Assembly (NCBI GenBank): GCA_024697825.1
Contig: JAILEP010000130.1
Coordinates: 1-32,108 of the forward strand
Reading direction: 5' to 3'
Source: Acholeplasmatales bacterium
GTDB taxonomy: Bacteria; Bacillota_I; Bacilli_A; Acholeplasmatales; Anaeroplasmataceae
DNA length: 32,108 bases
Shown here: positions 15,373 to 30,945 of the stretch, piece by piece
How the letters are laid out: each line of letters opens with the position of its first letter
Numbering within the stretch: position 1 is the stretch's first letter
The notes under the pieces: model-generated
The model's input: the letters and a program-made list of their open reading frames with translations, nothing else
Told to the model about the DNA's origin: nothing
Databases searched by the model: none
Made by a program: the position numbers and the translations under genes

Positions 15373-15891
15373 TTACCAGTTATTGTAGTGAATAGCACTC
15401 ATATCATAATCATTTCTTTCTTCCTTTAAATCATTTGGATCTTCAGGATATCCAAAGGCAATAATTGAATGAGGTATTTGATTATCTGGTAAATTAAATA
15501 GCTTCTTTTGAGCCTCAACTCTATCCATTTGAGGCCATGTACCAAGCCATACTGAGCCAATACCAAGCTCAGTTGCTGCAATAATCATATTTTCTCCAGC
15601 TATTGCACCATCAACAACCCAGTAATCCTTTGCATACATAAATGCCTTATCATAATCACCACAGATTAAAACACCTAAGGCAGCTCCTCTTAAAGGCTCT
15701 GCAGGCTTTCCATTTAAATCTGCCATTTTGTTTAGCATTTTCTTATCTGTTACTACAATAAAGCTCCAGTCCTTAGAATTTACACATGTTGGTCCACTTA
15801 CTGCAGCCTTCATAATAATATCTATTTCTTCCTTCTTTAAAGGCTTATCTAAATATCTTCTTACACTTTTTCTTTTAAATATTGCGCTCAT
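15373..15891 (-). CDS. Nitroreductase family protein
   Basis: FKRKSVRRYLDKPLKKEEIDIIMKAAVSGPTCVNSKDWSFIVV; AIAGENMIIAATELGIGSVWLGTWP. Confidence 0.93.
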   Translation of the reverse strand: MSAIFKRKSVRRYLDKPLKKEEIDIIMKAAVSGPTCVNSKDWSFIVVTDKKMLNKMADLNGKPAEPLRGAALGVLICGDYDKAFMYAKDYWVVDGAIAGENMIIAATELGIGSVWLGTWPQMDRVEAQKKLFNLPDNQIPHSIIAFGYPEDPNDLKEERNDYDMSAIHYNNW

Positions 15892-15940
15892 AATTTTATT
15901 CTCCTTACTATATTATACAATTAAACAATTAATATTAAAC

Positions 15941-15964
15941 CCCATTTGGAATCTACCAAATGGG
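15941..15964 (-). terminator. Terminator closing the iron/flavin operon
   Basis: CCCATTTGG-6 nt-CCAAATGGG perfect 9-bp stem just after the apbE stop; minus-strand tail GTTTAATATT. Confidence 0.7.
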
Positions 15965-15970
15965 CTAGTT

Positions 15971-16957
15971 TTAAGCTATAAACATAGTTGTATAATATGT
16001 AATTCTTTCACTTCTATAAAATAAAGCTTCAATGCCCTTTTCTTCTACAAAGCTTGCACCCATATTAGAGTCCATTGAAAAGATTGCAGTTGAATAAACA
16101 TCCGCTCTCATTGCATCATCACATATTACAAATATACCATCATGATATGTTTCAGGATATCCTGTATTTGGATTAATGATATGATGAACCTTAATTCCAT
16201 CAACATAGGTACTTTGATATTTAGAGCTAGATGCACCAAGGTTAACATTTTTTAATGATAATGTCGCGATAGTTCCTGTTTCATATTCATCATTTTCATT
16301 ATAAGGCTTATCTAAGGCAACACTAAATGTCTTACCAGCCTTAGTTCCAAGCGAAATGTTAGATGAACCAGAAATCATATAGCCATCTACATCATTTTCC
16401 TTTAAATATTCTACAGCCTTCATTGTGGCATAGCCTTTGGCAATACCACCTAAATCTAAATTACCATCACCATTTATTGTAATGGTATTACCTTCAATAG
16501 TTACTGAGGTATTCTTAGCTATTTCTACCTCGTTTTGAATTAGGCTCTCATCTGGCATGCATGGATTATCGCTTTCAATTACGTCCTTCCATATATGTGA
16601 AAGCCTGCCAATAAATGGATTAAAGTAACCATTAGTTTCTTCCATCATAGTTAGGGATTCTTTAATTAAATCAACTAATATATCATCAGCCTCAAGAGTT
16701 CTATTTTGATTAAGCTCATATACTCCATTACCATATGGGCTTTCATTAAAATCATCTGTTACATTCGCAACATTATTGAAAATATCTCTTACAGCCTGAT
16801 AATGAGTTTCAGCCTCTACTTCATCATAAAAATTAATTGTAATGAATGTATTCATTGTTGAAATAGTCTTACTATATGTTTCAATTTCACTACTTCCACA
16901 TGAAGCAAATGACAAAACACATATAAACCCCAACAATAATAACATTAATCTTTTCAT
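15971..16957 (-). CDS. apbE: FAD:protein FMN transferase (ApbE), lipoprotein
   Basis: Lipobox FASC; LDLGGIAKGYATMKAVEYL, ISGSSNISLG, HHIINPNTGYPE. Confidence 0.94.
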   Translation of the reverse strand: MKRLMLLLLGFICVLSFASCGSSEIETYSKTISTMNTFITINFYDEVEAETHYQAVRDIFNNVANVTDDFNESPYGNGVYELNQNRTLEADDILVDLIKESLTMMEETNGYFNPFIGRLSHIWKDVIESDNPCMPDESLIQNEVEIAKNTSVTIEGNTITINGDGNLDLGGIAKGYATMKAVEYLKENDVDGYMISGSSNISLGTKAGKTFSVALDKPYNENDEYETGTIATLSLKNVNLGASSSKYQSTYVDGIKVHHIINPNTGYPETYHDGIFVICDDAMRADVYSTAIFSMDSNMGASFVEEKGIEALFYRSERITYYTTMFIA

Positions 16958-16970
16958 TTTAATTCCTCTT

Positions 16971-17672
16971 TTATTTCATTTTCCAAATAGCCATTGATAT
17001 TGAATTAACTAAAAGCTCATCAATATCTAAGCCTGCTGGACAAATCTTTCTACAAGCAAGTGATTTACCACAGCCTGCATAAATATGCTCATCGAATAGC
17101 TTAGCAATCTCCGCTCTTTCCTTAGGTGATATTTCACTTAATAGCCTAGTTGTAATACCGATTGCGGCCATACCAAAGAATGTGCCTTTTGGATAGAAAT
17201 TAGGACATACCTCAAGACAGCAGCCACACTGAATACATTTAGAGGCTTTAAATGCTAAGGCAATCTTCTTTTCAGGTAGATTAGAATCCTTTTCTAACCA
17301 AAGCTTTAATGTCTTTAGGTTTTCATAAAGAATTTCTCTATTGACAACTAAATCATGAACAATAGGAAATTTCTTTAGTGGCTCAACCTTAACAACATCA
17401 CCAAATTCAATAAGCTTAGCATCACATGCAAGACGAGGTCTACCGCCTATTCTCATAGCACAGGCTCCACACTTTTTTTGAAGACAGCTGCATTCCCATT
17501 TAATAGGCTCAGTAGGATTTCCATCAATATCCCTTAAATCATCCTGCATATTAATTCTTCTTAATGCTGTGGCAACTGTATCAGCATCACCCTTCATTTC
17601 ATAAAGGAAGGTTTGGTAATAGGCTTCTGAGTCTTTATCCTTTTGTCTTAAAACCATAATCTTTTTAATCAT
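16971..17672 (-). CDS. Succinate dehydrogenase/fumarate reductase iron-sulfur subunit
   Basis: [2Fe-2S] CSCLQKKCGACAMRIGGRPRLAC; CIQCGCCLEVCPNF and CGKSLACRKICP cluster motifs. Start ATG 17672 overlaps the end of the upstream flavoprotein gene by 8 bp. Confidence 0.94.
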   Translation of the reverse strand: MIKKIMVLRQKDKDSEAYYQTFLYEMKGDADTVATALRRINMQDDLRDIDGNPTEPIKWECSCLQKKCGACAMRIGGRPRLACDAKLIEFGDVVKVEPLKKFPIVHDLVVNREILYENLKTLKLWLEKDSNLPEKKIALAFKASKCIQCGCCLEVCPNFYPKGTFFGMAAIGITTRLLSEISPKERAEIAKLFDEHIYAGCGKSLACRKICPAGLDIDELLVNSISMAIWKMK

Positions 17673-19245
17673 AAGGCTCACCTGCCATTCTAAAGCTTAT
17701 ATTAATTTTTCCATCATCATATTTAGCAATAGATTGAAGCTTATATTCATCAAGTGATTCTGGATAATCACTTCTATAATGAGCTCCTCTTGATTCCTTA
17801 CGAGAAAGGGCAGATTTAATCATTGCAATACCTAAATAGATACGCAATTTATCTATTTCATTATCACAATTATTTAATAAATCTATAGCCTTATTTAAGG
17901 CATCATTTAATCCATCCTCATTTCTAACAATGGTAAGTCCATTATATAAAATATCCTTAAGCTTTACAACAGTACTCATTTTAGAATCAGCTAAAATTTT
18001 ATTATTCTTTAATTCATTTGGTATTTCTAATTCCTCGAAATATTTAATTGCAGACTCTGCAGCCTTAATACCACCATAGGATGCACCAAGTAAGGAATTA
18101 CCACCTAAACGATTGGCTCCATGATAAATACATGCACATTCACCAGCTGCATATAAATTTTTAACGCTCGACCTATGGAGATTATCAGTATTGATTCCAC
18201 CCATAAAGAAATGAATACCGGGTTCAATTTTAATTGGCTCCTTTGCCGGATCCTTCTTCAAATAGCTTTTAATTTCTTCTCTTAAATCAGAAAGCTTATT
18301 CTTCCAGGTAGCCTTAGGAATAACAGTCATATCCAAATAAATATTATGCTCGCAAGCAGGGCTTGTTGAAACAAAATATTCCTCACGTGAGACAACATCT
18401 CTTGGCATTAGATTTTTAAGCTCTGGATACTTTTCTTCCATAAAATACCAAGGCTTACCATCCTTAATTACATAAAGACGTCCACCCTCACCTCGTGCAG
18501 CTTCGGTTATAAGCATTCTTTTTCCAGTTATCCTAATAGTTGTTGGGTGATACTGTAAAAACTCTAAATTCGCGAATTCTACGCCCTTAGAAAAGGCAAT
18601 AGCTTGAGCATTTCCATCGTTTTGAGTAGTTCCAGTAGTTTCTTCTGGAAAGAATCCATTCATTCCTCCTGTTGCAAGAATTACAGGTCCATTTAAATAA
18701 ATTAATTCATCCTTATATGTATCCTTGATTAAGCATCCATATAAAATACCATTTTCTATTAATAAATCCTTAAGCTCATGATGAGGCATGCGATTAACTA
18801 ACCCTAAGGCTTCATATTTTCTTACCTCATCAATTAAAGCAGTCATTAAAATCTTACCTGTACTACTTCTAGCAAAGGCAGTTCTTTTCTTTTTTTGACC
18901 ACCAAAATTTCTTTCTATAATATGGCCGTTTTCCATATTGAATGGCACACCATAGCTTACATATTTTTCAATTATTTTTGGAGCATTATCAGTTAAATTT
19001 TTAACTGCCTCACTAGAGGCGATAAAGCATCCACCCTTCATAGTATCATTAAAATGGAAAAGGGGCGAATCATCTTCACCCATTGTATTTAATGATGCAT
19101 TTATACCACCCTCTGCAAGCACAGATTGTGCTCTTTCAGAAGGCTGTAATGATATTAGATTAGTATGAAAGCCAACCTCTGATAAAGTAATAGCCGCATT
19201 TAAGCCAGCTATACCTGAGCCAATAATATTAATTGTCTTTTCCAT
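17665..19245 (-). CDS. Fumarate reductase/succinate dehydrogenase-like flavoprotein subunit
   Basis: NIIGSGIAGLNAAI FAD fold, AEGGINASL, LQYHPTTI, TEAARGEGG, GIHFFMGGI, GANRLGGNSLLGA. Confidence 0.94.
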   Translation of the reverse strand: MEKTINIIGSGIAGLNAAITLSEVGFHTNLISLQPSERAQSVLAEGGINASLNTMGEDDSPLFHFNDTMKGGCFIASSEAVKNLTDNAPKIIEKYVSYGVPFNMENGHIIERNFGGQKKKRTAFARSSTGKILMTALIDEVRKYEALGLVNRMPHHELKDLLIENGILYGCLIKDTYKDELIYLNGPVILATGGMNGFFPEETTGTTQNDGNAQAIAFSKGVEFANLEFLQYHPTTIRITGKRMLITEAARGEGGRLYVIKDGKPWYFMEEKYPELKNLMPRDVVSREEYFVSTSPACEHNIYLDMTVIPKATWKNKLSDLREEIKSYLKKDPAKEPIKIEPGIHFFMGGINTDNLHRSSVKNLYAAGECACIYHGANRLGGNSLLGASYGGIKAAESAIKYFEELEIPNELKNNKILADSKMSTVVKLKDILYNGLTIVRNEDGLNDALNKAIDLLNNCDNEIDKLRIYLGIAMIKSALSRKESRGAHYRSDYPESLDEYKLQSIAKYDDGKINISFRMAGEPYD

Positions 19246-19266
19246 CTAATATCACCCCTTTAACAA

Positions 19267-19812
19267 TCAGGAATTCCACCTGATAAAATATACAATAAAT
19301 GCCACTGTAGCGATACTTAATATAATCATTATTATCACATAAATATCAGCTGCGTATGGCTTTAATTCCTTTATACCAAAGGCAATTAATAATGGCTTTA
19401 CATTCATTATTATATGTAATGCTAAAACGATAACTAATGTAATCATTACAATAAGCCTAAATACTGTAAATTCTGGAAGTCTTTGATCTACTGATCTAAA
19501 GGCTAGGATATGAAATACTATTAATACAATCATTAAATATCCACTAATTCTTCTAGCCCAGAATAAGCCATTACCTCTAAAATATGACACTCCTGCCTTA
19601 TGACAAGCATAGAGAGTTGTCACCGTTAAAATAGTACCTATAATAACATGAACTCCAACAAAGCCCATAGTTATCCAGCCTAGCACGCTAGTTCCACTAA
19701 TGTTAACCCCAAACATTTGTAAAGAACCAAAAACTGCGTGTAGGAGGAACATAATAAGCATGAAGTGAGATACGAACATGTTTATTTTTCTTAATCCAAA
19801 TTTTCTTTTCAT
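19267..19812 (-). CDS. Cytochrome b-like membrane anchor subunit
   Basis: Five TM segments with His in TM helices (SHFMLIMFLLH, GVHVIIG, VFHILAF, LALHIIMN), directly upstream of the flavoprotein gene. Start at MKRKFG (19812) with AGGAG. Confidence 0.75.
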   Translation of the reverse strand: MKRKFGLRKINMFVSHFMLIMFLLHAVFGSLQMFGVNISGTSVLGWITMGFVGVHVIIGTILTVTTLYACHKAGVSYFRGNGLFWARRISGYLMIVLIVFHILAFRSVDQRLPEFTVFRLIVMITLVIVLALHIIMNVKPLLIAFGIKELKPYAADIYVIIMIILSIATVAFIVYFIRWNS

Positions 19813-19813
19813 A

Positions 19814-20371
19814 TTAATCTCCTGTCGCAGTTTCTTCACTTGTATCCTCAGTTATATGTAAAACTATGACACCATCAATTTCATCCTTTAAGCTAAATGA
19901 CTCTGCCATAGCCTCACTCATAACAACTAAATCTAGCATACCCTTTTCAGCCTTAGATACAACTAATATACCAGTTTCACTATCTAGTGTTATTGCAGCA
20001 CCGTTTGCGATAGCTCCTTGGTAATACTGTCCCATAGTGATTCCAGCTGAATCACCATTTATAACAGTTAATTTAATCTTTTCATCACCAGTTAAAATAT
20101 CCTTTTTAGTAATAAAGATTGATGAATCTCTATCACTACCATCAAAATATGAAACTAATCTAGTTTTAAGCCTATCAGAAAATGACGCTTCATTAATTAA
20201 AATGACAAAGCTTCCACTAGATTCATATTCTGAAAGATCAATTGAACCACCGGCTGTTGCGTCTACTGTTCCAAGCTTTATTAAATTGTCCCTTTGAACT
20301 AGCAAAGGAATACCAACAAATAGGAACAATGTAAGTAATACAAAGCCTATGTGCTTCAATATCTTTAGCAT
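19814..20371 (-). CDS. Unknown protein with N-terminal TM anchor and predicted extracytoplasmic domain
   Basis: 185-aa ORF inside the operon; N-terminal LKHIGFVLLTLFLFVGIPLLV, rest soluble; stop and next start abut as TAATATG. Confidence 0.8.
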   Translation of the reverse strand: MLKILKHIGFVLLTLFLFVGIPLLVQRDNLIKLGTVDATAGGSIDLSEYESSGSFVILINEASFSDRLKTRLVSYFDGSDRDSSIFITKKDILTGDEKIKLTVINGDSAGITMGQYYQGAIANGAAITLDSETGILVVSKAEKGMLDLVVMSEAMAESFSLKDEIDGVIVLHITEDTSEETATGD

Positions 20372-20395
20372 ATTTCACACTTCTTTACTTAAATT

Positions 20396-20878
20396 TTATT
20401 CAGTATAAACAGGACCAGCCTTTAATGCCTTTTCTACTGCATTTACAAACTGATTGAAATTGATTGTCGCACCAGCGATACAATCAACATCACTAATATT
20501 TTGAGCTGCGATTAATGCATTAGCATATTCAACACATGCCTCAACTGCAGTCTTAGCATTTCTCTTTTGGTTACTATCTAATTCGGCATTATTATAATAG
20601 CTTTCATCCTTTAGTGTACCATCAAGCTTATATGTTTGGAAAGTACATTCAGTAATTACACCACCTGAAATTGTAAATGTTACAATTCCATAGCCTGAAT
20701 CTACATCATCATCTGTACCATAGGTTGAGCTTTTACCACGATATGTACCATCTTCATATGTGACTGTAGCCTCACTTGATTCTAAAGCTTCAGTACTTGA
20801 TTTAGAATCACTTCCACAAGATGCAAGTGCAAGCATACCTGAAGCTACAATTGCTAATAATCCCTTAATTTTCTTCAT
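20396..20878 (-). CDS. FMN-binding domain lipoprotein (predicted ApbE substrate)
   Basis: Lipobox ALASC; EDGTYRGKSSTYG...YGIVTFTISGGVITECTF; flavinylation-like motif DCIAGAT; TAATG overlap with the ATPase stop. Confidence 0.9.
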   Translation of the reverse strand: MKKIKGLLAIVASGMLALASCGSDSKSSTEALESSEATVTYEDGTYRGKSSTYGTDDDVDSGYGIVTFTISGGVITECTFQTYKLDGTLKDESYYNNAELDSNQKRNAKTAVEACVEYANALIAAQNISDVDCIAGATINFNQFVNAVEKALKAGPVYTE

Positions 20879-21675
20879 TATTCTTCCTCTTTCTCTTCCT
20901 TAGATTCATTGTTTTCTACTTTCTCTAAAGGAACCTCTTCTTTATCTTCGTCCTTATTAAGACCTAAAAGGTCATACTTATCGCCTTTAATATTTTCATC
21001 ATTATTAAACTTAGGATTAATGTTATCGCTAACAATTTTACCATGCTCAAGCTTAACAATTCTTTGAGCATAATCACCAACCTCTGGTGCATGTGTTACA
21101 ACAATTAAAGTCTTGCCTTCCTTATGAAGCTGTCTAAAAATATCAATAACTAGCTTTTCGTTTGCCTCATCAAGGTTACCTGTAGGCTCATCAGCTAGGA
21201 TAATTTCAGGTGAGTTAATTAACGCTCTTGCAATACAAACTCTCTGTTGCTCACCACCAGATAGCTGGCTTGGTAAATGCTTAGATCTTGCACCTAAGCC
21301 TACACGTTCAAGTGCAGCTTGAGCCTCCTTTTGATCTGGCATTGAATGATAATACTGGGCAAGCATTACATTTTCAACCGCATTTAAATAATTTACTAAA
21401 TGGAATTGCTGGAAAATTAAACCAATCTTTTCTCTTCTAATTTGAGTTAAAGATGTACTACTTTCCTTAGATATATCATTTCCATCAAGTAAAACCTCAC
21501 CTATTGAAGGCTTATCAAGACATCCAATAATGTTCATCATTGTAGATTTACCTGAACCAGATGGACCCATGATGGCAACCCACTCGCCCTTTTCAATCTT
21601 TAGATTTACATCATCTAATGCTTTAATATCATCATATATTTTTGAAATATTTTTTAATTCTAATACTGTACTCAT
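20878..21675 (-). CDS. ABC transporter ATPase (MacB/LolD-type) with acidic C-terminal tail
   Basis: Walker [36 protein letters not shown]. Confidence 0.97.
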
Positions 21676-21691
21676 ATTTTAATCTCCTTAA

Positions 21692-22996
21692 CTACTCACC
21701 CTTTAAAACTACTGCAGCGTTAACCTTTGCAGCACTTCTAATAGGAAGCAAGCTTGCTAATGCTGTAACAGCAATAGATACTACAAGTGTAATAGGTAAT
21801 AACCACCATACAAATGTAATTGTGTTTTTAAATACCTGAATACTTACATATTCTGCAAATCCAAAACCAGCAAATGAACCAATAAGGCCACCAACAAATC
21901 CAAGTACAATTGATTGTACTAAGAATTCTGTAATAATATCCTTATTAGATGCACCAATAGATTTACATAAAGCAATTTCCTTACGTCTTTCATTAACTAC
22001 TGCATTCATTGTTGTAGCTACACAAATCATTGTTAATACTAAAACAATTAATGTAGTAACTAAAATTAATGACTGAAGCTTCTTTAATACTGTTCCTTCA
22101 GATGAAGTTAATCTTGTAATTGCCTTTGCAGTTGCATTAGCTAATGCATTAGTAATAGCTTCTGCATAGGTACTAACCTTTGAGCCTGATACTGAGAATT
22201 CTACTAAATCAAAGCCTTCTTCATTTTCTAAGGTATAATCAAAGCTTTTTCCTAAATATGTATATTCATTTTCATATTTATATAATGTTTCTCCATTTAC
22301 ATAAATATAATCCTCTTCAGAGCCACCTGTTTCAACAATACCAACAACTGTATATGTATATGCATATTCAACTGCAGCCTCAAGAGTATAATATGTTTCT
22401 CCTTCTTGATAGGCTGTAGCCTCTATATATGCGCCATCTTCTAAAATGTAATAAACTGCATCAGAAAAATTAGATGCATTTACTGCTGATGTAACATCTA
22501 AGTAATCATTATTAATTGTGATACTAGATTCAAATTTATCTAATAGCTTAAGTGAAAGCATATCAGCTACATTTTTACCTATTAAAACCTGAGCCTCTGT
22601 TGTTGGATAATCTCCTGAAACAGACCAATATGGGCTTGTCTTTTTAATAGTATCAAAGGTAATACCTGCAAGAACTACTGGCTGCTCGTGAACCTTTACA
22701 GTTTCATACTTATATGTTGTATAACCAACTAAATCATCAGAATCAATTAAGCGTACTGCTTGATCTACCTCTGAATCAGATAAAGCCTCATCGCCTGTTG
22801 GCATTAAAACCATATTAGCTCCATAATTACGGAATTCAGCACCCATCTGACGTGGGATATCATAATAAATTGTAAATAAACCAAATAAGACTGTTGCACC
22901 AACAACAATTGCAAGTAAAGCAATTATCATTCTCGATTTACGTCTAATAAGTGCAGCAAAGATCATTTGAAGGAACATTTTTCTTTTTGCATTCAT
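21692..22996 (-). CDS. FtsX-like ABC permease
   Basis: N-terminal TM, long extracytoplasmic domain, C-terminal FtsX core VNERRKEIALCKSIGASNKDIITEFLVQS and further TMs. Confidence 0.93.
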   Translation of the reverse strand: MNAKRKMFLQMIFAALIRRKSRMIIALLAIVVGATVLFGLFTIYYDIPRQMGAEFRNYGANMVLMPTGDEALSDSEVDQAVRLIDSDDLVGYTTYKYETVKVHEQPVVLAGITFDTIKKTSPYWSVSGDYPTTEAQVLIGKNVADMLSLKLLDKFESSITINNDYLDVTSAVNASNFSDAVYYILEDGAYIEATAYQEGETYYTLEAAVEYAYTYTVVGIVETGGSEEDYIYVNGETLYKYENEYTYLGKSFDYTLENEEGFDLVEFSVSGSKVSTYAEAITNALANATAKAITRLTSSEGTVLKKLQSLILVTTLIVLVLTMICVATTMNAVVNERRKEIALCKSIGASNKDIITEFLVQSIVLGFVGGLIGSFAGFGFAEYVSIQVFKNTITFVWWLLPITLVVSIAVTALASLLPIRSAAKVNAAVVLKGE

Positions 22997-23012
22997 CTTC
23001 TATTCCTCCATC

Positions 23013-24338
23013 CTACTTACCATGTAATACTTCCTGTGGCTTTAATCTAAGCATTAATCTTACCGCAGGAATACTACCAATTAGGGTAACTACTATAATA
23101 ATAAATGAAACAACAACTGCGACGATACCATTCATATCAACAGATGCGCCAAAGACAGTATGACCTATCAACTGGGCAAAGCCATATCCTAAGAAATAAC
23201 CAAATACATTACCTATTATTGCAACTATTACAACCTCAAGTAATACTAAAACTGTAATTTGATTATTCTTAGCACCAATAGCCTTCATTAAGCCTATCTC
23301 AGCACTTCTATCCATTACACTTGATGTAACTAAATTAGAAATACCTAAGGCAGCTGCGATAATACTTACTATCGCAATTAGCTGCATTAATAATTCAGTT
23401 TTTTCAAGGATATTTGATTCTGCATCCGCAATCTGTCTTACTGCTGATGCGACTGTATCAGGCATAACCTCCATAATTTGATAACAAATTGAGCTTACAT
23501 AAGCTGTACAATACCATAAATCATATTCTGAGCTTGTAAGTGATGTTGGATCAATTGCAGCTCTTTTAGCAAGCTCATTATCTGGAGTAGTTAAAGCACT
23601 AACCTCTATTTTCTTTACATATTCGTCCATTCCTGTAAAGGCCTGAGCGAAATCTAAATATGTATAAATATATGAATCCTCATCATCACCTGATGAATAA
23701 ATACCATATACCTTTACTGTTTGAGTTAAAGCATCACCTAGTGAACTAGATAATGTAATTTCATCACCAACAGAAATATTATTTGCCTTAGCATAATCAG
23801 CTCCAACCATTGCAAGGTTTTCAATAGTATTTCCGGCATCATCAACTGCAACCTGTTCATCTAGCCAATTACCATCAACAGTCCACCAAGAACGCATGCT
23901 TGTGATACCTAAATCAACCTCTTCCTTAGTTGGAAGTAATAAATGATGATTAAACCAAGCACCTACTACCTTAACCTTAGAACCATTTGAATCAGTTACA
24001 TAGGTTTCATATGTAGGTGCCACATCAGTAATATTAAATGCCCAGAATACTGTTTTAATCTTACCGATATCCTCTTCTACAATATATTCATCTGGAGATA
24101 ATGATTCCTCAGTATCCTCAAATTCATATAAGCTGCTTAAAACTGATGCCGACTTAGATACAACCGAAATATTAGAACCATATGATTTAAGCTCTGCATT
24201 AATCTTATCGCCAACATCAAGCATAACATTTAACATCGCAGTTGCAATTGATGCGCCAAGCATAACTGTAATTGCAATCATAAGCATTTTCTTAAATTGC
24301 TTACGATAAAGACCTATAATCATTTTAATAAAGAACAT
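23013..24338 (-). CDS. FtsX-like ABC permease
   Basis: Same architecture; MDRSAEIGLMKAIGAKNNQITVLVLLE; C-terminal RLKPQEVLHGK. Confidence 0.93.
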   Translation of the reverse strand: MFFIKMIIGLYRKQFKKMLMIAITVMLGASIATAMLNVMLDVGDKINAELKSYGSNISVVSKSASVLSSLYEFEDTEESLSPDEYIVEEDIGKIKTVFWAFNITDVAPTYETYVTDSNGSKVKVVGAWFNHHLLLPTKEEVDLGITSMRSWWTVDGNWLDEQVAVDDAGNTIENLAMVGADYAKANNISVGDEITLSSSLGDALTQTVKVYGIYSSGDDEDSYIYTYLDFAQAFTGMDEYVKKIEVSALTTPDNELAKRAAIDPTSLTSSEYDLWYCTAYVSSICYQIMEVMPDTVASAVRQIADAESNILEKTELLMQLIAIVSIIAAALGISNLVTSSVMDRSAEIGLMKAIGAKNNQITVLVLLEVVIVAIIGNVFGYFLGYGFAQLIGHTVFGASVDMNGIVAVVVSFIIIVVTLIGSIPAVRLMLRLKPQEVLHGK

Positions 24339-24339
24339 A

Positions 24340-25983
24340 TTATGCTGCCCCCTTGCTAAACTTCATTTGATATTTAACTAGCTCAGGAATTGGAATTCTA
24401 ATGCTTTCCATATCAGCACTATTAATTGTGTATGTACCCTCTTCGTATGAAATAACGATAGGGTTACATCCACCCTTCATACCAATTGTTGCCTTATTCA
24501 TAACAACACCACATCTCTTACAGATGATATCTCCATCCTTTTCGTAGTAGCCAGCCTCACCACATGTTTCACAGGCATCAAGGCCAACACCATAGCACAT
24601 ATTAGGCTTTAATACGACAATAACTCTTGTGTTATATCCATCCTCTGTCTTATAGCCAAAGCGATGTAAATGCCCATCCTCAACCATTGTATATGGAATA
24701 TAAATATATCCATTATCCTCTGTTACCTCAAAGCCATCAGAGTCTGTATATGTATAATAATCATGAATAACAATTGGATCTTCAACTGGCGCTTCATTAA
24801 TTGAATTATCTGCAACTACATAAAGTGCAGTCATTGACAATATACCAACAATTGCAGATGTACCTGCTAGAATACTCCATCTAATACCATTTAGCCAACC
24901 AGCCTTAATCTTTCTCTTTTCAGCTGTATTACGATACTTAAGCTTTGTAGTATGTAATGTATAAATAAAGAAGATTATAGCAAGTGCTAAAATACCAACC
25001 GCAATATAATTTAAAATGTCACTATGAGCATCAATTTTTAAAATTTGACGATAAATATTATCACCAAAAATTACGATACTCTTAAAGAATTTTCTGGTTT
25101 TTCTAAAATAAGAATATGTTTTAGAAATTGTATTCATACCTGCAATAAACCAAGCAAGTGTAAAGATTGAATACATAATTATATAGCTATAAATCTTACT
25201 CTTTCTTTCAGTGATAATATTTAAAACCTTATATAAACCAACTGGAATGATAATTGAAATAATAACTCCTAATATATATCCTGATAGGAATACTAAATAG
25301 GTACTACTTAATACTCCAATCTCTGAATCATAATATTCAAATGGTATCTTAAATACCTTAGTGACATCGATAATGATAATAGCAAATAAAACTATACCTA
25401 AAAACATAAAGGTAATTGCATCAAGTAAATTCATTAAAGTAAAATTTAATACCTTAACATCAGGCATTGCCTCAAGCTCAGAATCCTCATATTTTCTATA
25501 TTTCTCAGGATTCTTTTTCTTTCTACCCTCATCCTTAGCTAGCTTCTTTTCAACTCTAGCCTCACCATTTTTAGGATCATTTTTTCTTATTTCCTCATAT
25601 TTCATTTCTTTAGCCTCACGCTTTTTAGCTAAAGAAATAATTCTTCTCTTTTTAAAATTTGGATATTTAATTCTTAGTGGAACACCATCAGTCTTCTTTC
25701 TTAATGGCTTAACACTAGTGACAATAGTCATAACAATAAATAATAAGAATGACCAAACAGTTAGATGTAGGAAGGTTAACATCATCTTATATTCCTTTGG
25801 TATTCTATAATTTAAACCAACGGTAGCGTAAATTACTGAGAATAAAAATCCTAATACTGCAAATATTGTCGCAATACGCATTCCAAGCTTGCCATATTTA
25901 GCCTTCGCATAGGCAAAGAATGCACCTATTGCAACCATAAATACCAATAATTCAGTTACTACGTCGCTTGTAAAATTAAACAT
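24340..25983 (-). CDS. FtrD-like DUF2318 membrane protein
   Basis: Multi-TM N-terminal part with C-terminal VGLDACETCGEAGYYEKDGDIICKRCGVVMNKATIGMKGGCNPI (DUF2318 signature). Start MFNFTSD at 25983 behind AAAGGGG. Confidence 0.88.
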   Translation of the reverse strand: MFNFTSDVVTELLVFMVAIGAFFAYAKAKYGKLGMRIATIFAVLGFLFSVIYATVGLNYRIPKEYKMMLTFLHLTVWSFLLFIVMTIVTSVKPLRKKTDGVPLRIKYPNFKKRRIISLAKKREAKEMKYEEIRKNDPKNGEARVEKKLAKDEGRKKKNPEKYRKYEDSELEAMPDVKVLNFTLMNLLDAITFMFLGIVLFAIIIIDVTKVFKIPFEYYDSEIGVLSSTYLVFLSGYILGVIISIIIPVGLYKVLNIITERKSKIYSYIIMYSIFTLAWFIAGMNTISKTYSYFRKTRKFFKSIVIFGDNIYRQILKIDAHSDILNYIAVGILALAIIFFIYTLHTTKLKYRNTAEKRKIKAGWLNGIRWSILAGTSAIVGILSMTALYVVADNSINEAPVEDPIVIHDYYTYTDSDGFEVTEDNGYIYIPYTMVEDGHLHRFGYKTEDGYNTRVIVVLKPNMCYGVGLDACETCGEAGYYEKDGDIICKRCGVVMNKATIGMKGGCNPIVISYEEGTYTINSADMESIRIPIPELVKYQMKFSKGAA

Positions 25984-26036
25984 AATAAAAACCCCTTTAC
26001 TAATAAAACAATACAAATACGCCTAAAAGGTACACT

Positions 26037-26137: not shown

Positions 26138-26713
26138 TTAGATTTCCCATTCGCCTTCCTTGTAATCCCATTCAACACTGATTGTCTGTGTTTCAGGATA
26201 TACAGAAGATTCAGGACCTGTAGTCTCATCTGTATGGATTAAATAAGTAGTTGTTGTATCTGGGAACTTGATTGTGAATGTTAAATCATATGTACCAGAG
26301 CCGTTTAATGTTACGTTTGCACCATAGTGAGGACCATCTGATGCAGCCATTGGCATGAAAGTACCTTCATCAACAGTAGCGCCATTCTGAGATACTACAT
26401 ATTCAATAGTTAAATATGGAACCCAATCACCCTTACCATAACCATAGTCATTTTCAGTAGCCTTAACGTCTAACTCTAAGTGACAAGAAGCTGTAGTAGA
26501 TGACTGACCATCTGTTAAATCACAAGCCTGGAAATAAACTGCATTGCACTCTAAGAATGCTACTGTCTTAGGCTCATCGAAGATATCAACCTCGTTGAAA
26601 CCTGCACTTTCTTCCTCTTCAACGCTTGAAGCAGCTGAATCAGAACCACATGATGCTAATGCACCAACTAAACTTGCAGCAACAAGTACTGCACCTAATC
26701 TCTTTAATTTCAT
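26138..26713 (-). CDS. P19-family periplasmic/extracellular iron-binding lipoprotein
   Basis: Lipobox ALASC; CHLELDVKATENDYGYGKGDWVPYLTIEYVV and GTFMPMAASDGPHYGANVTL match the P19/Fe transport family. Confidence 0.93.
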   Translation of the reverse strand: MKLKRLGAVLVAASLVGALASCGSDSAASSVEEEESAGFNEVDIFDEPKTVAFLECNAVYFQACDLTDGQSSTTASCHLELDVKATENDYGYGKGDWVPYLTIEYVVSQNGATVDEGTFMPMAASDGPHYGANVTLNGSGTYDLTFTIKFPDTTTTYLIHTDETTGPESSVYPETQTISVEWDYKEGEWEI

Positions 26714-26775: not shown

Positions 26776-28323
26776 TTATTCTACTGACTCTTCAGTAGCC
26801 TCTGCTACAGGGGTGTCAGCTTCCCCTTCTTGAATTTCTGATACTTCATCAGATTCAACACTTTCCTCTTGCGCATCATCAATAACATTCTTAGATTCTG
26901 CTTTAGCCTTAAGCTTCTTATTCTTCTTTAGCTGAATTATGAATAAAACTGTTAAAGCGATAAATAAAATTATCTGAGGAATGATAGTACCCCAAACTGG
27001 GTAAATACCAAAGAAGTTTAATACCTCATTTTCAATCATCCATTCAAGACTTGGGCTAATTAACTGAGATGATGCATTTAATACACCTGAATCAAATAAT
27101 AATTCCCAAATACCTGCACCAATAAAGGCAACTGCCATAATAGACATTAAAATACTTGTTACCATGAAGAATGGCTTTAATGGTAGCTTGATTGAGTAAA
27201 CTCTAATTAAGAAATATACAACAAGGATTAATGCAATACCTAATCCTAAGCCAAGCCATACAGCTCCAATGCTTGTCGTAGCTGTAATCATAGGCTGATA
27301 GAATAGTACTACCTCGGCTCCTTCTCTAAATACAGCAAGGAATGCTGTAAATGCTATTGAGAAGACACCACCCTTATTAACTGAATTTGTAATAGATTTA
27401 TTAAGATATTTTGTCCATGCCTCTGTTTCTGATTTAGAAATCAACCAGTTCGATACGTAAATAATTACAACAACTGCTATCAAGGCTGTTACACCCTCAA
27501 TTACCTCCTGTGAAGTAGTTGACATCTTAATTAAATTAATTAGGAATGCTAATAGGAAGCTTGCTGCAACTGCAACAGCTACACCAATATAAATCCACTT
27601 TAGCTTATCCTTATTTCCTGTCTTAGCCATATATGCTGCAAGTGCAGATACAATTAATACTGCTTCTAATCCTTCACGGATCATAATACCGAAGCAAGCT
27701 AGGAATGTAGGCCAGAATGTATTTGAGCTGCCATCCTCTGAATAGAAAATATCATCAAGTATAGCTGCATCTGTTCTTAAATCCTCAATTAGCTCATCAA
27801 CTGATGTGCATAAAGCATCATAACTTCCAGACTGATTATATAATTTTTTTATTTCACTGAACTTTAATTCCATTTCAGTTACTCTCGCACCTGAAATAAA
27901 ACCATTAACCATTTTTTCAAAACCACAAGTGTCATACCATCTACCATAAATGTAGCCTAGGCAATCCTTGTAGTTATATTCCTTGTTCACATAAGCAGAA
28001 AGCTCTTCCTCTCTACCTTCTGGAACAACAATATAGTCAATGCCTGTCCCACCATTTTCATAGTCGTAATAAAGCTCAAGACCCTTTCTAGCAAGTCTTT
28101 CAATTCTATCTGTTACATTATCCCAAGTATAAGTAATATCTCCATCAGGGTTTTCTGTCTTCTGCCACTGAGTGTATGTTAAATATACAGGAGCGTCTGC
28201 ATCATATGCTGCAAGAGCTGGCATATGAACAGGTAATAATAACAAAATAGCTGCAAACATTATTGCAAAAATTACCTTAAGCGATACACGGCGATGCTTC
28301 TTATTATCCAAAGCATTTTCCAT
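26776..28323 (-). CDS. FTR1-family iron permease with N-terminal extracytoplasmic domain
   Basis: MIREGLEAVLIVSAL and VFREGAEVVLFYQP (two REGxE motifs), 7 TM, signal-like N-terminus. Confidence 0.95.
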   Translation of the reverse strand: MENALDNKKHRRVSLKVIFAIMFAAILLLLPVHMPALAAYDADAPVYLTYTQWQKTENPDGDITYTWDNVTDRIERLARKGLELYYDYENGGTGIDYIVVPEGREEELSAYVNKEYNYKDCLGYIYGRWYDTCGFEKMVNGFISGARVTEMELKFSEIKKLYNQSGSYDALCTSVDELIEDLRTDAAILDDIFYSEDGSSNTFWPTFLACFGIMIREGLEAVLIVSALAAYMAKTGNKDKLKWIYIGVAVAVAASFLLAFLINLIKMSTTSQEVIEGVTALIAVVVIIYVSNWLISKSETEAWTKYLNKSITNSVNKGGVFSIAFTAFLAVFREGAEVVLFYQPMITATTSIGAVWLGLGLGIALILVVYFLIRVYSIKLPLKPFFMVTSILMSIMAVAFIGAGIWELLFDSGVLNASSQLISPSLEWMIENEVLNFFGIYPVWGTIIPQIILFIALTVLFIIQLKKNKKLKAKAESKNVIDDAQEESVESDEVSEIQEGEADTPVAEATEESVE

Positions 28324-28413
28324 GATTCTTCCTCTTTTCTCCTATGATTAAATTTTCTCATTTTCCCGGTTTTATCAACAATTTTCGTTGAATGGTTAAC
28401 CAAAGTTAACCGA

Positions 28414-28469
28414 GTTAGTTAACGTTAACTAACCGAAAATATTATATTCAAGATTTTTTCAACTGTCAA
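28414..28469 (-). promoter_or_regulatory. Promoter and operator of the FTR1 operon
   Basis: Minus strand TTGACA (28469-28464), 17 nt, TATAAT (28446-28441), 7 nt, then perfect 20-bp palindrome GTTAGTTAACGTTAACTAAC (28414-28433). Confidence 0.85.
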
Positions 28470-28560
28470 CATACTATAATTAAATTTTTATTATTATTTT
28501 TGTGAAATCGCTTACGATACAAAACATTTATAAACGTAAAATGAAAATCCTTTTATATTC

Positions 28561-28612
28561 TTGACTTATGTCATAAACCCATCTATAATAATTGCTGTTA
28601 GTTATATCTAAC
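28561..28612 (+). promoter_or_regulatory. Promoter and operator of the DUF4418-FtsX-ATPase operon
   Basis: TTGACT (28561-28566), 17 nt, TATAAT (28584-28589), 7 nt, then GTTAGTTATATCTAAC (28597-28612). Confidence 0.82.
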
Positions 28613-28626
28613 CAAAGGAGTAAAAA

Positions 28627-29043
28627 ATGAAAAATAAAAAGTTAATTATTGTAGTGCTAAGTAGTATTACTGCTCTATTATCATTATTCTTATTAATTGG
28701 TAGTCAGTGGATATTTACTGTTTGCCAAAGTGAAGGCACTCACGGCTGTACAAATGCAGATCACGCTATCCTTGGAATGTCTATTATTATGATTTTAACA
28801 GCTTGCTCTGCTTTAATATTTAGAGATGAAAAAAGCTTAATTATAGCTTCTTCTTTAAATTTTGCAGAAAGCTTTATGTGTATGCTTTTAGCATCTGCTA
28901 TTTTAAGCTTCTGTAAGATGGAGACAATGTCTTGTGTTGCAAAATTCAAGCCATTTGTTATTATTATGGGAGTCATTATTATGATTTCATCTGCTATTAA
29001 TTTATTATATGGCCTATATCAGCTTAAGAAAGGAAATCACTAA
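28627..29043 (+). CDS. Small 4-TM membrane protein, DUF4418-like
   Basis: 138 aa, four hydrophobic segments, Cys between TM1 and TM2 (FTVCQSEGTHGCTNADHA); RBS AAAGGAG. Family call from memory. Confidence 0.7.
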   Translation: MKNKKLIIVVLSSITALLSLFLLIGSQWIFTVCQSEGTHGCTNADHAILGMSIIMILTACSALIFRDEKSLIIASSLNFAESFMCMLLASAILSFCKMETMSCVAKFKPFVIIMGVIIMISSAINLLYGLYQLKKGNH

Positions 29044-30278
29044 TGCAAAGAATCTTCAACAGTCTAACCTTTAAAAATTTAATCGGTAGACCTGCAAGAT
29101 CTATAATGCTAATCCTATTATCTTTAATTATGTCGTTTACAATTATTGCAGGTACTCTTGCAATATCAGGTGTAAGTAGCGGAATTGACGCAGCTGAAGG
29201 AAGGCTTGGAGCTGATATTATGGTTTTACCATATCAAGCAGGCTCTCGTTCTACTGAATATACACTCCAGGGAAATAATGGTAGATATTATACTTCTATT
29301 AATTATGTTCCTGCTAGCTTAAATACTGAGGGTGTAGATAAGGTATCCTACCAATATGTACTTTCTACTCTTGCAGCATCATGCTGTGATTCTAAGGTTA
29401 CAATTTATGGCTTTGTTCAGGAAGGAACATATAAGGATTTTACTATTTCACCTTGGATTTCATCTAAATATAGTGTTAGCACCCTAAAAATAGGTGAAAT
29501 AATCGTTGGTGCTGATTTAGTTTTAGATAAAGGTGATACCTTTACAGCTTATGATTATGAATTATCTGTTGTAGCTCGTATGGATAAGACTGATACATAC
29601 CTTGATACTGCAATTTATGCATCTATTGAAACTATTCAAGATATTTATGATTCTAATTCATCTACTCTTGCAAATTCAGGAGCTTTAAATCCATCTAGCT
29701 ATGTTTCAAGCATTTTAATTAATGTTAAGAATGGCTATGAAATTGATGATGTAGTTGCTAATTTAAAATTCTCATTAGGATATACAGATACTCATTCTAA
29801 TTATGGATATTATGTAATTGGTTCTGATGAAATATTATCTAATATTGGTGACAATTTAAGTACAGTTTCAAGTATTATTACAGCCTTAATTGTTGTAATT
29901 TGGATATTATCATTCCTAATTATGGCAGTTACATATACAATGATGATTAATGAACGTAAAAAGGAATTTGCAATTATGCGAGTTGTAGGCGCTTCTAAAT
30001 CAAAGCTTTCAAGCATAGTCTTTAAGGAGGCTCTAGCTATTAATTTAGTTGGTGGTATTATTGGTACATTACTTGGCTCATTATTAGTATTATTATTTAA
30101 GAGCTCTGTTGAAAATATGCTAGGTCTTCCATTTGTAATGCCAGATTGGTATATCATTATTATCTTTATTATTGGTTCAATACTATTCGCTGCGGCAGCT
30201 GGTGCGATTTCTTCTCTTATTTCGACAAGAAAGATTAATAAGATTGATCCTGCTTATACATTAAGGGAGGATAATTAA
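29043..30278 (+). CDS. FtsX-like ABC permease
   Basis: NERKKEFAIMRVVGASKSKLSSIVFKEAL FtsX core; TAATG overlap with the upstream gene. Confidence 0.92.
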   Translation: MQRIFNSLTFKNLIGRPARSIMLILLSLIMSFTIIAGTLAISGVSSGIDAAEGRLGADIMVLPYQAGSRSTEYTLQGNNGRYYTSINYVPASLNTEGVDKVSYQYVLSTLAASCCDSKVTIYGFVQEGTYKDFTISPWISSKYSVSTLKIGEIIVGADLVLDKGDTFTAYDYELSVVARMDKTDTYLDTAIYASIETIQDIYDSNSSTLANSGALNPSSYVSSILINVKNGYEIDDVVANLKFSLGYTDTHSNYGYYVIGSDEILSNIGDNLSTVSSIITALIVVIWILSFLIMAVTYTMMINERKKEFAIMRVVGASKSKLSSIVFKEALAINLVGGIIGTLLGSLLVLLFKSSVENMLGLPFVMPDWYIIIIFIIGSILFAAAAGAISSLISTRKINKIDPAYTLREDN

Positions 30279-30279
30279 T

Positions 30280-30945
30280 ATGATTTTAAAGGCTCAAAAT
30301 ATTAAAATGGAATTCGAAAGAAAAAGAAAGGATACTAATATCCTTGAGGTTTTAAATGAATTCAATTTAGAAGTACCTGAAGGAAAGCTTCTATTAATTA
30401 TGGGTGAATCAGGTAAAGGTAAAACTACAATACTAAATATAATATCAGGTCTTCTTAACCCAACCGAAGGTAATGTATTTTTAGATGAAACTGATATTTA
30501 TTCATTAAATGATAAGGAATTATCTAAATTAAGAAGTGAAAACTTCGGTATGGTACCACAAGGACAAACCTTACTTAGAAGCTTAAATGTATTAGATAAT
30601 ATTCTTCTTCCAATTAAGCTTTATAGAAATCCTAGTGATGATGATATTAAAAGAGCTAAGGATTTAATTGATGAAATGGGAATTACAGATTTAATTGATG
30701 TAATGCCAAGTGAAATGAGCGGTGGTGAATTAAGACGTGCCGCAATCGCAAGAGCGTTAATTAATAATCCAAAGATTTTATTTGCGGATGAACCAACATC
30801 TGATCTAGATTCTAAGAATCGTAATATGATTATTGATATCTTTAAGGCTCAAAGAGATAAAGGTGTGTCAGTTGTTATGGTAACACATGATGATTCACTA
30901 AAGGATATTGCAGATATTTTAATTAACTTAAATGAAGAGGCATAA
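30280..30945 (+). CDS. ABC transporter ATPase (MacB/LolD-type)
   Basis: GESGKGKTT, MSGGELRRAAIARAL, ILFADEPTSDLD. Confidence 0.95.
   Translation: MILKAQNIKMEFERKRKDTNILEVLNEFNLEVPEGKLLLIMGESGKGKTTILNIISGLLNPTEGNVFLDETDIYSLNDKELSKLRSENFGMVPQGQTLLRSLNVLDNILLPIKLYRNPSDDDIKRAKDLIDEMGITDLIDVMPSEMSGGELRRAAIARALINNPKILFADEPTSDLDSKNRNMIIDIFKAQRDKGVSVVMVTHDDSLKDIADILINLNEEA

Follow-up and report, generated by a model that had tools for sequence, protein, structure and literature searches.

Genes at the locus

The window, that is, the whole 32,108-nucleotide stretch of DNA that was analysed, contains two divergent operons. The minus-strand operon begins with the gene of an FTR1 iron permease (26,776–28,323), followed by those of a P19-type Fe2+ transport protein (PF10634, Iron_transport; 26,138–26,713) and an FtrD-like membrane iron-sulfur protein (24,340–26,016), all assigned by means of Pfam, and, in the same run, of two FtsX permeases and an ABC ATPase (20,878–24,338). 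The resulting gene order, FTR1-P19-FtrD-like-FtsX-FtsX-ABC, is shared with the Campylobacter FTR1-P19 systems (Cj1658-type), which the run resembles. Compared with those systems, the promoter here bears a predicted operator of the DtxR type. Few members of the family have FTR1 (it occurs in 2 of 55 genomes), and a protein search with FTR1 in the named genome collection gave no relatives. Past this run (15,373–20,878) lie genes of an FMN-binding protein, two unassigned proteins, a fumarate-reductase-like flavoprotein with an Fe-S subunit, ApbE and a nitroreductase, which may possibly supply electrons for ferric reduction.

The plus-strand operon starts with the gene of a DUF4418 protein (28,627–29,043, Pfam) and continues with an FtsX-like permease and a LolD/MacB-like ABC ATPase (29,043–30,945, with Pfam among the bases of the assignment). 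This operon as a whole (28,627–30,945) appears to be co-regulated with iron uptake. A related FtsX-ABC pair adjoins feoAB in the relative G008 (L113).

Two promoters with matched palindromes

Direct reading of the window gives the FTR1 promoter, on the minus strand, as TTGACA-17 nt-TATAAT-7 nt-GTTAGTTAACGTTAACTAAC. Its -35 element lies at 28,464–28,469, its -10 element at 28,441–28,446 and its predicted operator, a perfect 20-bp palindrome, at 28,414–28,433. The DUF4418 promoter, on the plus strand, reads TTGACT-17 nt-TATAAT-7 nt-GTTAGTTATATCTAAC, with the -35 element at 28,561–28,566, the -10 element at 28,584–28,589 and the predicted operator at 28,597–28,612. The two palindromes therefore stand at the same 7-nt distance from the -10 element, as an earlier note on this DNA had claimed. 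The note had also taken the 20-bp form as the motif. The palindrome is real, but the 20-bp form is not the unit: a genome-wide comparison of sites yields the 16-bp GTTAG-N6-CTAAC as the element common to them. The DUF4418 operator contains this core exactly, and the FTR1 20-mer consists of two such cores, each with one mismatch, which overlap at a 4-bp offset. An order-3 Markov model predicts 1.7e-5 occurrences of the 20-bp pattern GTTAGTTAN4TAACTAAC in the window and 0.001 in the genome. When 3 mismatches are allowed, shuffles expect 0.40 occurrences in the window, and the pattern blends signal with noise; the 16-bp core was used for the scans. A weaker palindrome, GTTAACCAAAGTTAAC (28,395–28,410, without strand), lies in the FTR1 leader just downstream of the FTR1 operator and, from its sequence, is a candidate accessory site.

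The core motif and its targets

In the 1.9-Mb genome, the exact core occurs 13 times, compared with 2 copies of the reversed control pattern and 1.2 copies expected from an order-3 Markov model. Over 55 genomes of the family Anaeroplasmataceae, there are 215 copies of the motif and 110 of the control. Across 61 genomes from the two remaining families of this order, the real pattern averages approximately 0.5 copies per genome and is usually under its control, so the reversed control errs, if at all, on the generous side. A general occurrence of the motif throughout the order was considered and rejected, as the order-wide scan found the other families to be without it. Genus g5 (G041–G051) has DtxR proteins, mostly of the N10 type, yet shows no excess of the motif, which suggests that the operator has changed there.

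The exact copies are found in front of genes of several kinds. One precedes a gene on contig C13 that encodes a DtxR-family protein of 124 aa, and its promoter, TTGACT-17-TATAAT-7-GTTAGTTTTAACTAAC, has the geometry of the two promoters in the window. Others precede a DUF3793-flavodoxin-ABC operon (at two sites), the gene of a ZupT-like ZIP transporter, a GAF/C_GCAxxG_C_C gene pair, a TetR-ABC operon, a DUF4491 gene, an ABC ATPase and a few genes that have no obvious link to iron (HXXEE, UPF0154). Cores with one mismatch precede feoA-feoA-feoB and a FecCD-type ABC operon. Two unrelated promoters share an identical site, GTTAGATTATACTAAC, which overlaps the -10 region of each; they are those of TetR-ABC exporters (G000:C10:1032, L021; kept in A. 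bactoclasticum) and of the DUF4491 gene (G000:C88:2773, L038). The paired operators of the DUF3793-flavodoxin-ABC operon (L012:3623-3679 and orthologs in many relatives) are 41–42 bp apart, or 33–35 bp apart in other genera; one of them embeds the -35 element, and the other lies over the predicted start. The literature search found no paper that connects DUF3793 with iron.

The genome under study belongs to the same genus as G001, a contig of which matches Anaeroplasma bactoclasticum ATCC 27112 without a difference over the part that was compared. Within this genus, exact sites closely precede feoA/feoB, DUF3793-flavodoxin (frequently as a pair, 41–42 bp apart), ZIP, TetR-ABC-ABC, GAF-C_GCAxxG_C_C, FTR1 (in G008) and several dtxR genes. 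G001 itself (98% complete) has sites at DUF3793-flavodoxin, TetR-ABC and ZIP. The FTR1 ortholog of G008 (52% identity) carries GTTAGTTAACACTAAC 7 nt past TATTAT, and the ortholog of the C13 dtxR gene in G015 (64% identity) keeps its site. Other genera of the family have sites at feoAB, DUF3793-flavodoxin, ZIP and FecCD, and a site lies between the divergent feoAB and dtxR genes in G054 and G004. All the computational tests proposed in the earlier note support it: the motif recurs at iron genes, with the excess over the control given above; it is linked to a gene of the DtxR type with the same 7-nt geometry; and it is kept in relatives at feoAB, flavodoxin, ZIP, FecCD and FTR1.

The position of the sites is also constrained. 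Family-wide, 109 site-gene pairs include 19 promoter-site pairs in which the gap past the -10 element is exactly 7 nt, whereas permuted positions give 1.2 on average and never more than 5 over 2000 runs; the count includes orthologs of common ancestry, which are not independent. The register nevertheless spans the non-homologous operons of DUF4418, FTR1 of G008, dtxR, DUF3793, ZIP and feoA, and it is more than a product of chance. There are two minor registers, at -34 (with the -35 element inside the operator) and at -13 (with the -10 element inside it). The three registers are 20–21 bp apart, or approximately two helical turns, and a dimer would therefore approach the promoter from the same side in all of them. 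At the iron-uptake targets FTR1, feoAB and FecCD, the operators overlap the predicted transcription start and/or the -10 element.

Comparison with known metal regulators

The closest resemblance is to the DtxR/IdeR iron box. An IdeR dimer can bind TTAGGNNNNCCTAA, the single-dimer consensus, singly (PMC8464063), and repression by IdeR results from its occupation of the start, the -10 element or both (PMC10317159). The sites described here share with the box (TTAGGTTAGSCTAACCTAA) and its single-dimer form a palindromic TTAG-N6-CTAA core of identical spacing. The DUF4418 and dtxR promoters carry this core without mismatch, and it agrees with the palindromic operator form TTAG(G)-N4-(C)CTAA. The sites likewise overlap the start or promoter of iron-uptake genes and are linked to DtxR-family genes, and five relatives (G003, G004, G005, G009 and G014) contain the IdeR form GTTAGGNNNNCCTAAC exactly. 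Unlike in the IdeR box, the usual form here is GTTAG-N6-CTAAC, in which the first C of CCTAA is mostly replaced and an outer G/C is added. Moreover, the sites are mostly single-dimer ones. The full 19-bp two-dimer box TTAGGTTAGSCTAACCTAA is absent: 16-bp cores stand alone, the overlap in the FTR1 20-mer has an offset of 4 bp rather than 5 bp. The candidate regulators also differ, in that they have no SH3-like domain.

Two other regulators share some of these features. The TroR of Treponema belongs to the DtxR family, that of T. pallidum likewise has no SH3-like domain, and the intermediate ligands (N or D at position 10) also occur here. Its operator has dyad symmetry at a sigma70-like promoter, and the T. 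denticola TroR senses Mn and Fe. In contrast, TroR governs its own tro ABC operon rather than many iron operons, and it has Glu where Cys is found here at the position of C102. The Bacillus subtilis MntR is a short, SH3-less repressor of the DtxR family and the best sequence match. The C84 type of protein described below keeps its D8, E11, H77, E102 and H103. It differs in that E99 is replaced by Cys here and in that the targets are iron genes. Taken on its sequence features, the system is one that would work like an IdeR/DtxR regulon, as most of the defining features of such a regulon are present.

Candidate regulators and alternative readings

The genome encodes two proteins of the DtxR family, named C13 and C84 after their contigs, and two of the Fur family. 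C13 (124 aa) and C84 (122 aa) have a DtxR fold that is evident from their sequences; they consist of two domains only, and neither has the C-terminal SH3-like domain. The C13 gene gives PF02742/PF01325 matches and has a candidate operator at its promoter. The gene of C84, which represents the widespread type of DtxR, lacks such an operator in this genome. At the positions of MntR D8, E11, H77, E99, E102 and H103, C13 has M, K, Y, C, E and H, and C84 has D, E, H, C, E and H. The binuclear MntR site is thus complete in neither protein, as E99 is Cys in both. The primary metal site of DtxR consists of M10, C102, E105 and H106 (PMC2628430). All four ligands are present only in C13, whereas the C84 type has D, C, E and H; consequently, C13 carries the set of an iron sensor and C84 an intermediate set. 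C13 departs from both DtxR and MntR in having K and Y at the positions of MntR E11 and H77 and Ser at that of IdeR Pro39, while C84 keeps the Pro of the recognition helix. In a tree, C13 clusters with Met-type DtxRs from sister genera. By sequence as well as by profile, both proteins match MntR best.

The single-dimer binding and start-covering of IdeR, the same spacing of TTAG-N6-CTAA and the presence of GTTAGGNNNNCCTAAC in five relatives make metal-dependent binding of a DtxR-family protein over the start the likeliest explanation. It is highly probable that an iron-responsive repressor of the DtxR/IdeR/MntR family uses both palindromes in the window as its operators; it would shut off iron acquisition when loaded with metal. 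The earlier note had proposed that one repressor controls both operons; control of the DtxR type is supported, and the note was right in essence, but the word "one" is in doubt, as two DtxR paralogs may act in this genome. It is an almost even question whether a regulator of the C84 type alone reads the operators, with C13 as an autoregulated side branch, or the reverse, although the balance is slightly against it. Most relatives that bear the motif have a single C84-like DtxR, and A. bactoclasticum G001, whose only DtxR is 69% identical to C84, still has sites. C84 also retains D8, E11, H77, C, E and H together with the recognition-helix Pro. However, the C13 gene has an operator in the exact 7-nt register, which is kept in its ortholog, C13 carries the DtxR-like Met/Cys ligand set, and sister genera with Met-type DtxRs use the same motif.

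The metal could also be manganese, in which case the repressor would be an MntR-like sensor and the regulon would answer mainly to Mn(II). The MntR matches of both paralogs, the D8 retained by C84 and the membership of a ZIP transporter in the regulon are consistent with this. It is nevertheless unlikely: the targets are iron-specific (FTR1, Feo, P19 and FecCD) and include flavodoxin, an iron-sparing protein, nearly all family members have Cys in place of MntR E99, and D8 is replaced by Met in C13, a substitution that loosens the specificity for Mn (PMC2628430).

Far less probable is the binding of the palindromes by a Fur-family regulator, even though Fur is the usual iron regulator and two Fur-family genes are present. 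The motif is not a Fur box, and one of the two genes adjoins a rubrerythrin gene, as that of PerR often does. Two near-complete genomes, G033 (99% complete, 8 sites) and G054 (97%, 6 sites), have the motif at feoAB and ZIP and one DtxR each, and a PF01475 search found no Fur-family protein in either. Fur is therefore dispensable for the regulon, and a Fur regulon was rejected. Together with the half-site spacing of IdeR, these Fur-less genomes agree with the view of the earlier note that the sites resemble a DtxR/IdeR box more than a Fur box. Palindromes do arise in AT-rich intergenic DNA and the 20-mer could fold as a hairpin, but a chance origin, or a hairpin of a leader or terminator that has nothing to do with a regulator, is hardly credible given 13 sites against 2, the association with iron genes, the fixed 7-nt register and the conservation in relatives.

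Proposed mechanism and its implications

Under control by a DtxR-family repressor, plentiful cytoplasmic Fe(II), or Fe/Mn, would load a dimer of the short SH3-less protein, which would then bind GTTAG-N6-CTAAC. The bound dimer would cover the transcription start, because the site begins 7 nt past the -10 element, and would block RNA polymerase. Under iron limitation, the metal would leave the repressor, and both operons of the window (FTR1-P19-FtrD, for uptake, and DUF4418-FtsX-ABC) would be turned on together with the feoAB, FecCD, ZIP and flavodoxin operons. The C13 dtxR gene would repress itself, because it bears the same operator in the same register. Protein binding, the identity of the metal, the sign of the regulation and the division of the sites between C13 and C84 are what we infer in this scheme.

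A broader proposal is more tentative, and its chances are somewhat below even: an iron regulon of the whole Anaeroplasmataceae (Mollicutes), in which SH3-less DtxRs with a mixed DtxR/MntR metal site act on single-dimer 16-bp operators in three helically phased registers (-35, -10 and start, approximately 20–21 bp apart), with two paralogs that have different ligands on common operators in this genome. A literature search, which covered few subscription journals, found no described iron or DtxR regulon of Anaeroplasma, Anaeroplasmatales or Mollicutes. The regulator and mechanism appear to be of a familiar kind, and the operator and regulon in Mollicutes appear to be undescribed in the literature searched. 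A complete iron regulon (operator, regulator and targets) can thus be predicted for wall-less bacteria of the rumen and gut. A role in iron limitation can be assigned to proteins of unknown function, namely DUF4418-FtsX-ABC, DUF3793 and DUF4491. Because paralogs with different ligands appear to use one operator, this genome would also provide a natural test of how the ligands at positions 10 and 102 set the choice between Fe and Mn in the DtxR/MntR family.

A further DtxR paralog of approximately 143–147 aa is encoded in G003 (L103:948-1379) and G009 (L116:2144-2587). It has lost metal ligands (L, K, H, Y, E and N stand at the six MntR positions), and it is possibly metal-blind or differently tuned. 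Its promoter has two operators, one of which is the IdeR form GTTAGGNNNNCCTAAC, and an ABC exporter gene lies nearby.
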